Origin: Actinomycetota bacterium | GTDB taxonomy: Bacteria > Actinomycetota > Actinomycetes > Nanopelagicales > Nanopelagicaceae | Direction: 5' to 3' | Assembly (NCBI GenBank): GCA_026393035.1 | Contig: JAPLAY010000011.1 | Span: forward strand, 1 to 44,303 | Length of the DNA: 44,303 nucleotides | In this document: positions 19,084 through 23,129 of the stretch, one piece after another | Layout of the letters: every line of letters begins with the position of its first letter | Numbering within the stretch: position 1 is the first letter of the stretch | Translations under genes and position numbers: made by a program | Notes under the pieces: model-generated | Database searches by the model: none | The model's input: only the letters and a program-made list of their open reading frames with translations | What the model was told of the DNA's origin: nothing

Positions 19084-20226
19084 ATGGAGCCGTTGATCAG
19101 CGAAGAGTACGACGCTCTACGCGAAAGCGTGCGCGCACTGGCTACCAAGAAAATCGCACCATTCGCTAAAGATGTTGATGAGAATTCTAGATTTCCGCAA
19201 GAGGCATACGAAGCACTTCAAGCCGCAGATCTCGCTGCCGCTCATGTTGATTCAAAGTTCGGCGGTCAAGGTGCTGATGCACTTGCGACAGTAATAATTA
19301 TTGAAGAAGTTGCACGCGCATGTGCCGCTTCATCGCTTATCCCAGCAGTAAATAAATTAGGTTCACTTCCGCTAATTCTTGCGGGCAGCGAAGAACAGAA
19401 AAATAAATATTTGCCACAACTAGTTGCCGGGAAAGGCTTCTCTTACTGTCTATCGGAATCAGAAGCCGGATCAGATGCAGCTGCTATGAAAACCAGAGCA
19501 ACTAAAAGTGGTAGCGATTGGGTAATTAACGGAAGCAAAAAATGGATTTCTAATGCCGGCTTCTCAGATTTTTATACCGTATTAGCTCAAACCGACCCAG
19601 CACTTGGTGCAAAAGGCATTTCGGCATTTATCATTGAGAAGAGCGATACCGGTGTTTCATTTGGCGCACATGAAAAGAAAATGGGATTTAGAGGATCGCC
19701 AACTCGCGAAGTTTATTTTGATTCCGTAACAATTCCTGATGACCGCAGAATAGGTGCAATAGGTTCTGGCTTTGCACTTGCAATGCAGACTCTAGATCAC
19801 ACCAGAATTACGATTGCAGCGCAGGCACTTGGAATAGCACAAGGAGCTTTCGAGGTTGCAACACAATATTCACATGAACGAAAGCAATTTGGCAAAGAGA
19901 TATTCGATTTTCAAGGTGTGCAATTTATGTTGGCAGATATGGCCATGAATATTGCTGCGGCACGACAACTAACCTACGCAGCAGCTGTTAAGAGTGAGCG
20001 TGGCGAGAAAGATTTAACTTTCTTCTCGGCGGCGGCGAAATGTTTTGCAACTGATGTGGCCATGAAAGTCACTACCGATGCGGTTCAAGTACTGGGTGGT
20101 TATGGGTATGTTTCTGATTATCCGGTTGAACGGATGATGCGCGATGCGAAGTTAACGCAAATTTACGAAGGAACAAATCAGGTGCAAAGGGTTGTTATTG
20201 CCCGCCATCTTGCTGATCTAAATTAA
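19084..20226 (+). CDS. Acyl-CoA dehydrogenase
   Basis: A 380-residue FAD enzyme that introduces a trans-2 double bond into acyl-CoA. The family motifs are complete: FSYCLSESEAGSDAAAMKT, WVINGSKKWISNAG, the DHTRITIAAQALGIAQGAFE segment, RKQFGKEIFDFQGVQFMLAD and, near the C-terminus, QVLGGYGYVSDYPVERMMRD followed by QIYEGTNQVQR, whose Glu is the likely catalytic base. The short-chain/butyryl-type pattern fits best; the exact chain length is unknown. It follows CopD-CtaG by 12 nt and its stop overlaps convergent 5-FTHF cyclo-ligase by 4 nt. No Shine-Dalgarno is obvious; GTTAAT lies at -12. No other beta-oxidation gene is in the window. Confidence 0.95.
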   Translation: MEPLISEEYDALRESVRALATKKIAPFAKDVDENSRFPQEAYEALQAADLAAAHVDSKFGGQGADALATVIIIEEVARACAASSLIPAVNKLGSLPLILAGSEEQKNKYLPQLVAGKGFSYCLSESEAGSDAAAMKTRATKSGSDWVINGSKKWISNAGFSDFYTVLAQTDPALGAKGISAFIIEKSDTGVSFGAHEKKMGFRGSPTREVYFDSVTIPDDRRIGAIGSGFALAMQTLDHTRITIAAQALGIAQGAFEVATQYSHERKQFGKEIFDFQGVQFMLADMAMNIAAARQLTYAAAVKSERGEKDLTFFSAAAKCFATDVAMKVTTDAVQVLGGYGYVSDYPVERMMRDAKLTQIYEGTNQVQRVVIARHLADLN

Positions 20227-20774
20227 TTTGTAAATCGAACAATTAAATCTGGGGTAGCAATGGCATCTAATTTCATGTCATGTGCCTCAACTGGGAATGG
20301 TTCCACAGTTAATTCACCCGAATAGATAAGTCCAAGGCGCCATGCTGAAATATCAGCAAGTGCGCGATCATAAGATCCACCACCTTGTCCTAAGCGGTGA
20401 CCTTCGCGAGTTGCATGAAGAGTCGGAACAATCACGATATCGATATCAGTGCCAGAAATAGGATTGCCTTTTGGTTCAAGTATTTTTCCACTTTTGACTA
20501 ACGTAGCAACATCACCATTCCAAGCAATCCATTCCAAACTCTTATCTTTGAGCATCCTTGGAAGTAGCAAATTTTTGCCACTCTTTAAGATGGCTAAATT
20601 CAAATCTTTAGTCTGTGGCTCATCGCCATATGAGATGTAACTCGCAATCGTTTTCGCTGCAGAAAATTCCTGAGAATTAATTATGTGTGTCCAGGTTTCA
20701 GATAAATCACGGAGTGATCGTTCAGCACGAAAACGCTTTCGTAATTCTTGTTTTTTCGAGTTACTGATATCCAC
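20223..20774 (-). CDS. 5-formyltetrahydrofolate cyclo-ligase
   Basis: A 183-residue enzyme (YgfA/MTHFS family) that converts 5-formyl-THF to 5,10-methenyl-THF with ATP, recycling a dead-end folate. The N-terminal Lys/Arg helix (KKQELRKRFRAERSLRD), the substrate region IASYISYGDEPQT, LLLPRML and the ATP loop GHRLGQGGGSYDRAL are all present. The start is GTG 20774, with TAGAGT at -12 on the minus strand and no Shine-Dalgarno. It is divergent from the MoeA-like gene with only 33 bp between start codons. In mycobacteria the same gene lies next to galU and moeA (recalled); galU is missing here. It belongs to folate one-carbon metabolism with purU. Confidence 0.95.
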   Translation of the reverse strand: MDISNSKKQELRKRFRAERSLRDLSETWTHIINSQEFSAAKTIASYISYGDEPQTKDLNLAILKSGKNLLLPRMLKDKSLEWIAWNGDVATLVKSGKILEPKGNPISGTDIDIVIVPTLHATREGHRLGQGGGSYDRALADISAWRLGLIYSGELTVEPFPVEAHDMKLDAIATPDLIVRFTN

Positions 20775-20807: not shown

Positions 20808-21725
20808 ATGGAACAACAGCCGAGCGTCGAAGAGCTTCTTGCGAAGTTACTCGAAATTTCAGCACCACTCACGCCTTTCGATATGCCGCTATTAGATGCG
20901 CATGGTGCAACTCTGGCTTCAGATATTTATGCAGGAGAGCGCCTAGTTTTGCGAAGTGGTACCCGAATTCGCTCTACCCAGATCGGGCTTGCGGCATCTA
21001 TCGGTTTAAATCGATTGCCGACTTTGCCACATCCCAGAGTTGTAGTTATCTCTGCTGGCGATGACTTAGTAGAACCTGGTCAGGTTTTAGCTAACTCAGA
21101 AGATGAGTTCGAAACAAATTCTTGGATGCTCACGACTGCGGTTCGCGAAGCGGGCGCAAATGGTTTTCGGGTTCACACAATCCCGGAGAATCATCAACAA
21201 TTAAAAGAGGTAATCGAAGATCAATTGGTCCGCGCCGATTTAATTGTAATTAGCGGCGAACGCCACGATGAATCTTTTGAATTGATAACCGCGGTACTAA
21301 AAGAGATGGGCGAAATAACAACGGTTCGACCAAAGATGAGTGAAAGCGGATTACATAACTTTGGACTAATCGGCCCAGACCAAACACCAGTTATTACCCT
21401 TCCGGGCGACCCTGTTGTTGCAGGTATTGCTGCGGAGATCTTTGTTCGCCCAATGATTAGAAAGATGTTGGGAGCGCCAAATATTTTCCGCAATCAATTA
21501 AAGGCAAAGTTAAAGAGCTCAATCTCTGCAGTTCCTGGTGAGAGCGGTTTTGTTAGAGCAATTCTAAGTTCAGAAAATGGCGTTGTTGTTACCGCGCTGG
21601 AAGAGCAGAGCGACTTAGTTTCACTTTCAGATGCAACTGCCTTGATTATTGTTCCCGAAAAATCTGCCGGGATTAAATCCGGAGAGATTGTTGATGTAAT
21701 GGTGCTAGAGCGGAGTTCAAATTAA
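20808..21725 (+). CDS. MoeA/gephyrin-like protein lacking domain II (candidate Glp-type division scaffold)
   Basis: A 305-residue MoeA homologue, about 100 residues shorter than normal MoeA. Residues 1-40 align with the start of domain I (HGATLASDI). Residue 41 onward (YAGERLVLRSGTRI) aligns with MoeA after domain II, so the entire domain II, including the FDNSAMDGYA motif, is absent. Domain III (75-225) keeps VVVISAGDDLVEPGQ and LPGDPVVAG, but the molybdate/pterin motif SGGVSxGxxD is changed to SGERHDES (149-156). Domain IV (228-305) is intact. It abuts rimJ and is one gene from a SepX/GlpR-like gene. In corynebacteria the MoeA paralogue Glp binds FtsZ and the receptor GlpR, so a division-scaffold role is my preferred inference. 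Molybdenum insertion is unlikely. Confidence 0.82.
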   Translation: MEQQPSVEELLAKLLEISAPLTPFDMPLLDAHGATLASDIYAGERLVLRSGTRIRSTQIGLAASIGLNRLPTLPHPRVVVISAGDDLVEPGQVLANSEDEFETNSWMLTTAVREAGANGFRVHTIPENHQQLKEVIEDQLVRADLIVISGERHDESFELITAVLKEMGEITTVRPKMSESGLHNFGLIGPDQTPVITLPGDPVVAGIAAEIFVRPMIRKMLGAPNIFRNQLKAKLKSSISAVPGESGFVRAILSSENGVVVTALEEQSDLVSLSDATALIIVPEKSAGIKSGEIVDVMVLERSSN

Positions 21726-22307
21726 TTGGGCGCCACAAGTGAATGGCCGATAAAGCTTAAGAGTGGCGAGATTTTGCTGCGCCCACTTCGATTCCGAGAT
21801 AAAAGTGCATGGGATTCTTGCCGGGCGAAAAATAGAGAATGGCTTGTACCTTGGGAGGCAACTCGCCCCGAAATAGATTCCCACCTGCCACTCCCATCAT
21901 TTATGGGGATGGTTCTGCAGTATCGCAAAGATGGAATGAGCCTTCGATCTATTTCACTAGGAATCTGGCTCTTAGAAAATGACAGTGAAAAATTTATTGG
22001 CCAGATAACTTTGGGCGGTATCGTTTTTGGAGCAATGCGCGGTGCCCATATTGGTTATTGGATAGACCAGCGATATGCCAATCGAGGGTTCACAACCAAG
22101 GCCGTCTCTTTGCTTACCGATTTCGGCTTGAGCGATTTAGCGCTGCATAGAATTGAAATTAATTTGCGGCCAGAGAATGAAGCTTCTAAGCGGGTAGCTG
22201 AAAAATCGGGCTATATTTTTGAGGGAATGCGCCCTAGATATTTACACATTGACGGGGCATGGCGAGATCATGCAACCTATGTAAAAGAAAATCCAAGAAT
22301 TAAGTAA
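21726..22307 (+). CDS. GNAT N-acetyltransferase, RimJ/RimL-like
   Basis: A 193-residue GNAT acetyltransferase of the ribosomal-protein-alanine type, using acetyl-CoA. The start GEILLRPLRFRDKSAW and the linker REWLVPWEATRPE match RimJ-like actinobacterial proteins. The acetyl-CoA region lies in AHIGYWIDQRYANRGFTTKA, followed by LHRIEINLRPENEASKRVAEK and the ending RPRYLHIDGAWRDHATY. A TTG start directly follows the stop of the MoeA/Glp-like gene, with a GGAG about 10 nt upstream, so translation is probably coupled. The same gene sits between the moeA-like and the membrane-protein genes in mycobacteria (recalled), so it may work with them. The real target, ribosomal or other, is unknown. Confidence 0.9.
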   Translation: MGATSEWPIKLKSGEILLRPLRFRDKSAWDSCRAKNREWLVPWEATRPEIDSHLPLPSFMGMVLQYRKDGMSLRSISLGIWLLENDSEKFIGQITLGGIVFGAMRGAHIGYWIDQRYANRGFTTKAVSLLTDFGLSDLALHRIEINLRPENEASKRVAEKSGYIFEGMRPRYLHIDGAWRDHATYVKENPRIK

Positions 22308-22376
22308 TACCTTTGAGTAAAGACATACCGCCTAAATCCCCGAGATTTACCCCGCCTAGAATTATCGTTCTACTCC

Positions 22377-23129
22377 ATGGCGTCCGGTTTTATCTACCTA
22401 ATCATCCTCGGGATGTGGGCGGCCTACTTTTTGCCAAAATGGATAACAAGCCACGATGAAGCTTCGGGAAAATCTGCCGAAAGATATAAGAGTGCAATGC
22501 GAGTTGTCGGTGAAACTGGCTCGGTAAATCCCGCCCAGAACGCAACAGATAATTTTAAGAAACAGAATCAAATTGCCAATCGTCGAATTATTTTTAGTTC
22601 ACTAACTTTTTCATTTTTAATTATCGGAGCACTATGCGCGGTTGGAATAATTTCAACTTCAATTTTGGCAATACCAACAACTGCGCTCGCAATTTATGTC
22701 GTTCATGTGCGTCGACAGATTGTTGCAGCACAACTCAAGCAACGTCGTATTAATGCTTTCCAAAAAATTTCATCTGCAACAGTTATCACCGAACCAATTG
22801 AACGCTTAACTTTCTCATCGCGAATTGATTTTGTTGAAGAGAATAAGGAACATTGGATTCCATTAATCGAGAGAATTGATACTGCGGGGGTTGTAGTAAT
22901 TCCTAAAGATGGTCCGACCTGGCAACCAACAAGTGTTCCAAAACCAACTTATGTAACTGCAGCAAAAGCAATTCCAACAAACCGTGTTATAGATCTAACC
23001 GTTCCGGGCGCCTGGAGCGCATCACAACAAGCGCAGGATGAATCAATCTTGCCATCACGTGATGATTTGTTCGATCAAGAACTTGAAGAGAACGCGGCAA
23101 CTAAGAGATTTGACGCAGTTAACGAATAA
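22377..23129 (+). CDS. Membrane protein resembling SepX/GlpR (actinobacterial cell division)
   Basis: A 250-residue protein. A first membrane helix is at residues 3-19 (FIYLIILGMWAAYFLPKW), followed by a short cytoplasmic segment with ERYKSAMRVVGETG. Two close helices lie at about 70-108, then a basic stretch (VHVRRQIVAAQLKQRR) and a long soluble C-terminal part with two short Pro/Trp motifs (PTWQPTSVPKPTY and VPGAWSA). The N-terminal FIYxxILGMWAAYFLPKW plus SAMR pattern and the position after the moeA-like and rimJ genes match the conserved actinobacterial protein called SepX in Streptomyces and GlpR in Corynebacterium, as I recall them. Those proteins act at the septum. The ATG follows a TAGAAT at 22357-22362 and no Shine-Dalgarno. 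The family call is moderately sure. Confidence 0.72.
   Translation: MASGFIYLIILGMWAAYFLPKWITSHDEASGKSAERYKSAMRVVGETGSVNPAQNATDNFKKQNQIANRRIIFSSLTFSFLIIGALCAVGIISTSILAIPTTALAIYVVHVRRQIVAAQLKQRRINAFQKISSATVITEPIERLTFSSRIDFVEENKEHWIPLIERIDTAGVVVIPKDGPTWQPTSVPKPTYVTAAKAIPTNRVIDLTVPGAWSASQQAQDESILPSRDDLFDQELEENAATKRFDAVNE

Follow-up and report, generated by a model that had tools for sequence, protein, structure and literature searches.

The window, the whole 44,303-nucleotide stretch analysed here, comes from an Actinomycetota bacterium of the family Nanopelagicaceae (the freshwater acI lineage), and carries three head-to-tail genes on its + strand at 20808–23129. They raise the question of what a MoeA homologue without domain II does beside a SepX/GlpR homologue. 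Sequence comparison suggests that this 305-amino-acid (aa) protein is probably a derived, non-enzymatic orthologue of Glp, likely a divisome scaffold with GlpR; a role in division is the most likely one because of its neighbours. The locus comprises:

20223..20774, − strand: 5-formyltetrahydrofolate cyclo-ligase, the divergent and conserved neighbour of glp
20808..21725, + strand: glp, domain-II-less MoeA/Glp homologue, 305 aa, ATG start
20808..20933, + strand: glp residues 1–42, N-terminal domain III piece and first half of domain I (DAHGATLASDIYA), up to the junction (by alignment to Corynebacterium glutamicum Glp, with borders from PMC10522489)
20934..21722, + strand: glp residues 43–305, second half of domain I, domain III and domain IV
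21252..21287, + strand: glp residues 149–160 (SGERHDESFELI), remodelled former SGGVSxGxxD active-site loop
21543..21596, + strand: glp residues 246–263, domain IV β-hairpin, corresponding to where the FtsZ-binding loop lies in C. glutamicum Glp, with M361/Y369 lost
21726..22307, + strand: RimJ-like GNAT N-acetyltransferase, 193 aa, TTG start abutting the glp stop
22377..23129, + strand: SepX/GlpR homologue, 250 aa, ATG start, with N-terminal helix, paired helices at about 71–113 and a long tail (helix borders judged by eye)
22917..22997, + strand: GlpR residues 181–207 (TWQPTSVPKPTYVTAAKAIPTNRVIDL), conserved tail motif
23112..23126, + strand: extreme C-terminus of GlpR, DAVNE, a RAVNE/AANE-type end

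A Glp homologue without domain II

The best family for the 305-aa protein is NCBIfam Glp_gephyrin (NF045515; 245 bits, E = 9.6e-73), although the curated cut-off of 475 bits is not reached. Pfam MoCF_biosynth and MoeA_C match as well, and MoeA_N does so only over the last 22 of its 160 positions; instead of the four-domain MoeA architecture, the protein has NF045515 profile positions 138–403 and a short N-terminus. The RimJ-like product matches PRK10809 (E = 2.4e-19, under the curated cut-off), and the 250-aa product matches SepX_GlpR_2 (NF050099; E = 2e-29, 103 bits against a curated cut-off of 150). The head-to-tail order of moeA-like, rimJ-like and SepX/GlpR-like genes, proposed in the original prediction, is borne out by the profile matches of all three products, and the rimJ TTG start directly after the first stop by the open reading frame coordinates. 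An acyl-CoA dehydrogenase gene (19084–20226) adjoins the folate cyclo-ligase gene, and is found at the locus in 8 of 11 fetched genera with truncated Glp and in 0 of 3 g6 loci.

In an alignment with C. glutamicum Glp and E. coli MoeA, the protein has no residues in the columns of domain II. The absent stretch corresponds to approximately residues 45–147 of C. glutamicum Glp, about 100 aa, and PMC10522489 places domain II of that protein at residues 46–145. Profile, alignment and relatives thus agree with the original prediction of a MoeA homologue lacking this domain. Its claim that HGATLASDI is joined to the downstream part also stands, but the exact point does not: the sequence reads HGATLASDI-YA|GERLVLRSGT, with Y41 omitted in the earlier reading and the junction at A42|G43. 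SGERHDES does replace SGGVSxGxxD, and LPGDPV is present.

An AlphaFold2 model built with 52 sequences (pLDDT 86.1, pTM 0.84) has as its best PDB match 8bvf, C. glutamicum Glp with the FtsZ C-terminal domain (TM-score 0.84 by query length); the structural comparison proposed earlier therefore returns Glp as the closest solved fold. Both Pro-rich hinges between domains I and III are kept (PLxPFDMP and LPTxPHPRV), with P20, P27, P71, P74 and P76 conserved.

Domain II loss across the family

The loss of domain II is real and lineage-wide. Our order sample contained 201 genomes, all of one family, with a glp match in 196, and 150 matches were listed row by row. Among the matches listed, 146 begin only beyond domain II, at profile positions 137–145, with no internal stop in any of these 146, and four span the whole profile (three in genus g6, one in genus g40). 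The domain-II-less form occurs in one-contig genomes; named genomes yielded at least 570 related stretches, and among the 80 retained are two from titled complete genomes, Candidatus Planktophila versatilis MMS-IA-79 and IMCC19121. Six of ten glp comparisons with close relatives give dN/dS of 0.03–0.05, a sign of strong purifying selection, with dS also high there (0.9–2.3), and in the other four dS is saturated. In all 11 other truncated-Glp genera of the family with fetched neighbourhoods, rimJ and then glpR follow glp, the locus no longer contains moaC and the protein no longer contains domain II. We therefore rule out an assembly or sequencing deletion by the lineage-wide short form, the one-contig genomes and dN/dS; the original prediction had named domain II intact in close relatives as the sign of such an artefact, and close relatives lack the domain too.

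Individual genomes show other irregularities. In G019 (L028 G019:C81, L222), glp homology lies in two pieces, residues 1–49 and 82–304, with extra DNA between them that may stem from an insertion, a frameshift or an assembly fault. In two other members of the class, G526 (L184) and G466, the Glp/MoeA match is split, with adjacent pieces in different open frames, as would be expected of broken genes or of sequence errors.

A second truncated lineage

We also searched a class sample of 393 genomes, 43 of them of the window's family, and re-examined all outside-family genomes with a best E-value above 1e-90 (17, among 22), a scan that a truncated copy behind a better-scoring paralogue would escape. 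Four genomes, all of family f39, genus g87 (G328, G499, G531 and G543), match the profile ends only and lack domain II, and in the other re-examined genomes that gave a match, whether full-length, partial or split, it extends over domain II positions. The truncated f39 Glps are 307–318 aa long, are followed by rimJ and then glpR in 4/4 genomes, and have junction sequences that differ from those of the window's family. A genome of the related genus g88 (G337) carries a full-length degenerate Glp at the locus and a separate motif-intact MoeA near moaC.

Our alignment kept 104 of 158 rows plus three added, after removal of six rows that were partial or fused, of the duplicate of the window's own gene and of numerous near relatives. 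In a quick tree, the window's Glp falls inside a 76-row set holding the glp-locus copies (95*), outside other MoeA groups; another quick tree was made from 99 rows (the 104 minus five long-branch rows). A careful 47-row tree, made from 46 of the 104 rows and one f39 row with domain II columns left out, gives a truncated clade of the family (100/100) that is sister to the full-length g6 and g40 proteins of the same family (joint node 99/99); the truncated f39 proteins form a separate group (100/100) beside f39 g88 (95/89), and many deep branches are unresolved. Forcing all truncated rows into one clade made the 47-row tree 39.5 log units worse (AU p = 0.0078), whereas the same constraint improved the 99-row tree by 2.9 log units (p = 0.54), a solution missed by the free search. 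A single loss is thus rejected by the careful tree and was not rejected by the quick 99-row one, and the careful tree suggests that domain II was lost at least twice in the class. In acI, the loss probably occurred in the ancestor of most of Nanopelagicaceae, in lineages without moaC at the locus.

Catalytic residues and molybdenum cofactor genes

The original prediction held that this protein could not easily be a molybdenum insertase, and we see no sign of a molybdenum cofactor (Moco) role, with catalytic residues mostly lost. Ten positions of E. coli MoeA, nine of them mutant sites in PDB titles, were mapped onto 113 truncated rows, a count that includes near-duplicates and the window's own gene twice. 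D59, T100, R137 and D142 are deleted, their columns being gaps in 113/113 aligned rows, near-duplicates included. E188 is replaced by D in 112/113 and S371 by Q in 111/113 rows, K279 has mostly become E or S, D or E prevails at D228 and D259, and R350 is retained. The window's Glp accordingly lacks the full complement of catalytic residues of both half-sites that marks an insertase.

The genome-wide picture is similar. We did not find moaC, moaA (PF06463) or MoCoBD (PF02738) in the window's own genome (82.7% complete) or in the relative G001 (99% complete), and moaC was not found in 14 of 17 one-contig genomes of the family (G027, G035, G060–G064, G066–G071 and G075); the complete Moco pathway with this protein as sole MoeA, which the original prediction had named as contrary evidence, was not seen in its own genome or in several near-complete relatives. 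Individual rows show the truncated match in 12 of the 14, and for G068 and G075 there is only an E-value of the same order. Thirteen of the 14 have a single NF045515 match, and therefore no detached domain II is seen. Six other relatives have moaC, a truncated Glp and a separate full-length MoeA (G005, G008, G009, G015, G029 and G030).

Two rival explanations concern the gene itself and its enzymatic role. One is that the short gene is decaying or is a sequencing or assembly product, as the two separated pieces in G019 might suggest; the same shape in 146 of the 150 genomes listed, none with an internal stop, its presence in one-contig genomes and dN/dS of 0.03–0.05 make this scarcely credible. 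The other is that the truncated protein still works in Moco synthesis, with domain II supplied elsewhere or unneeded. The MoeA fold, LPGDP and R350 all remain, and the window's genome is incomplete, but Moco genes are missing there and in G001, moaC is missing in most one-contig relatives, there is no trace of a detached domain II, and the six moaC-bearing relatives have a separate full-length MoeA. We regard this role, disfavoured by the missing genes and the separate MoeA, as very improbable.

moaC and the history of the locus

We compared glp-locus copies in one representative for each of the 23 other families of the class, where the order is glp-moaC-(gap)-rimJ-glpR wherever enough sequence is present, and rimJ neighbours glp in most of the families looked at. 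Seventeen copies adjoin moaC (that of G049 at a contig edge), and 16 of them keep all three strict catalytic motifs, the exception being G057, with DSSSMDG for DNS[AS]MDG. Of the five copies without moaC (G039, G040, G046, G047 and G051), none keeps the motifs; four of these five genomes have no moaC match anywhere, and G051 is only 78% complete. Three cases blur this pattern. A second copy in G045, which adjoins moaC and rimJ, reads RNSAMDG. The single copy fetched from G038 also adjoins moaC, with neither rimJ nor glpR in view, and reads PNSQMDG. G051, in which moaC was not found, has a further MoeA whose motifs are nearly intact.

Within the window's own family, genera g6 and g40 retain moaC beside a glp that is full-length and has intact motifs (G031, G109, G153 and G175; loci L063–L065 in g6, L066 in g40), and moaA and MoCoBD enzymes are present in the three of these genomes tested (G031, G109 and G175). 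In the same three of the four, Glp is the only MoeA found, and it may therefore be bifunctional there, an enzyme and a division protein in one; G153 has two matches. A further g6 genome, G197 (80% complete), has only a weak best NF045515 match.

On one possible reading, Glp would at first have been a working molybdenum insertase moonlighting in division, as g6 and g40 still look. Moco synthesis would then have left the locus, the enzyme site would have decayed and the catalytic domain II would have been shed, at least twice. Comparison of g6/g40 with their truncated sisters makes this order of events, moonlighting and then specialisation, directly testable.

GlpR, RimJ and FtsZ

The 250-aa protein is a SepX/GlpR homologue, as first proposed, by its locus and tail motifs, together with an NF050099 match below the cut-off. 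Besides its N-terminal helix and paired helices, it carries the tail motif W.P...P.PTYVTA and ends in a RAVNE-type sequence. The strict P.PxY tail pattern occurs in 46/59 family, 44/54 named and 10/28 other-family rows, and the RAVNE/AANE-type end in 46/59, 39/54 and 19/28, respectively, some rows being cut open frames; FDQ is present in all 59 family rows. The tail motif and the C-terminal end may each serve as a short linear motif, for Glp binding or otherwise. DivIVA (PF05103) was not found in 12/12 family genomes, genera with full-length Glp included, nor in f39 G337, leaving the GlpR–Wag31 link of C. glutamicum without a known partner here. Many GlpRs begin M-A/G/T, and modification of GlpR by RimJ is only an idea; for the original suggestion that RimJ may modify one of the partners, the analysis turned up no evidence.

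How the truncated Glp might contact FtsZ is less clear from its sequence. The model contains a domain IV hairpin (E246–254, E260–263), with S254 and V259 in place of the published FtsZ-binding loop signature and a loop three residues shorter. Among truncated Glps, M361 is mostly S/T/A, Y369 mostly K/V/S and L343 mostly E/K/T. We sought conservation of domain IV as proof of FtsZ binding and did not find it: domain IV is the least conserved domain, in catalytic Glps too. Mean conservation in truncated versus catalytic Glps is 0.84 versus 0.68 for domain I, 0.77 in both for domain III and 0.59 versus 0.61 for domain IV (54 and 35 thinned rows, of unequal breadth, one family versus about 20), and dN/dS is 0.06–0.11 for domain IV compared with 0.02–0.03 for domains I and III. 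The FtsZ tail [DE][ILM]D[IV]PDF[ML][KR] is kept in 18/18 family FtsZs outside g6/g40, the window's genome included, in all 21 family genomes sampled and likewise in other families; being equally conserved with other Glp types, it is not specific evidence. Binding to FtsZ through the domain IV hairpin is therefore putative, an interaction that the truncated Glp may have kept.

An alternative is that, once domain II was lost, the former active-site side of domain III lay bare and became a new surface for binding a partner or ligand, with the main contact in domains I and III and not in the domain IV hairpin. In the truncated clade, 35 positions are fixed, to at least 90%, for a residue other than the one most often found in catalytic Glps, and several of these lie at the old active site; E151, D154, S156, F157 and I160, for example, stand at 94–100%, and the commonest residue in catalytic Glps differs. 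Such refixation of former catalytic or nearby positions, which extends to D86 (E188), D201 and Q267 (S371), would fit a new surface, as would a domain I more conserved than in catalytic Glps, with III and IV level, and the lost hairpin signature. However, fixation may equally reflect folding after the deletion, the truncated f39 lineage shares only one of these eight residues (D86) and five of the 35 positions (I54, D86, V141, L159 and G181), and the sets compared differ in breadth. We consider this exposed-surface reading possible, if doubtful. Its fuller form for acI, in which a moonlighting insertase ancestry and at least two domain II losses were followed by a bared, strongly constrained domain III face that carries the division function, seems rather unlikely; it would place the essential contact in domains I and III, not in the FtsZ hairpin.

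Comparison with known systems

Our preferred reading is that of a scaffold, which GlpR would anchor at the membrane and which would connect to FtsZ, via domains I, III and IV only. The original proposal was that Glp was kept only as a scaffold and pared down to its protein-binding domains. Profile matches, gene neighbourhood and trees support Glp orthology; a reduction to just the part known to bind proteins is not supported, as domain IV is least constrained and M361/Y369 are gone. Domain II, which served catalysis, would be dispensable for division. Its loss amounts to a deletion experiment that nature has carried out at least twice on a division protein discovered only recently, and such losses suggest which of the four domains of MoeA are required by the divisome, domain II seemingly not among them. 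In the full-text literature (subscription papers, preprints outside PMC and supplements lay outside the search), we found neither a Glp lacking domain II nor any acI Glp described. New here are the second family without domain II (f39, g87), the moaC-linked motif retention, and a motif-intact Glp as the only MoeA found in three of four g6/g40 genomes.

The window's GlpR resembles SepX of Streptomyces and GlpR of corynebacteria in its N-terminal helix and paired helices, and its tail motif and RAVNE end are as in GlpRs of other families. It differs from C. glutamicum GlpR, in which PMC10522489 gives IDR1 as residues 27–218, in its length of 250 aa and its first loop of about 47 residues, and no DivIVA was found in the 12 family genomes. 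The window's Glp shares with E. coli MoeA (1g8l) and the gephyrin E domain the fold of its three remaining domains; unlike them, it has no domain II, most catalytic residues are lost or changed, and no Moco genes were detected. From C. glutamicum Glp (Cgl0883, MoeA2; PDB 8bve/8bvf) it differs in lacking domain II and the FtsZ-loop signature and in several refixed active-site positions. With that protein it shares glpR two genes on, the MoeA fold of domains I, III and IV, the Pro-rich I/III hinges and a degenerate active site; although outside the published FtsZ-loop signature and the NCBIfam cut-off, it most likely works like Glp.
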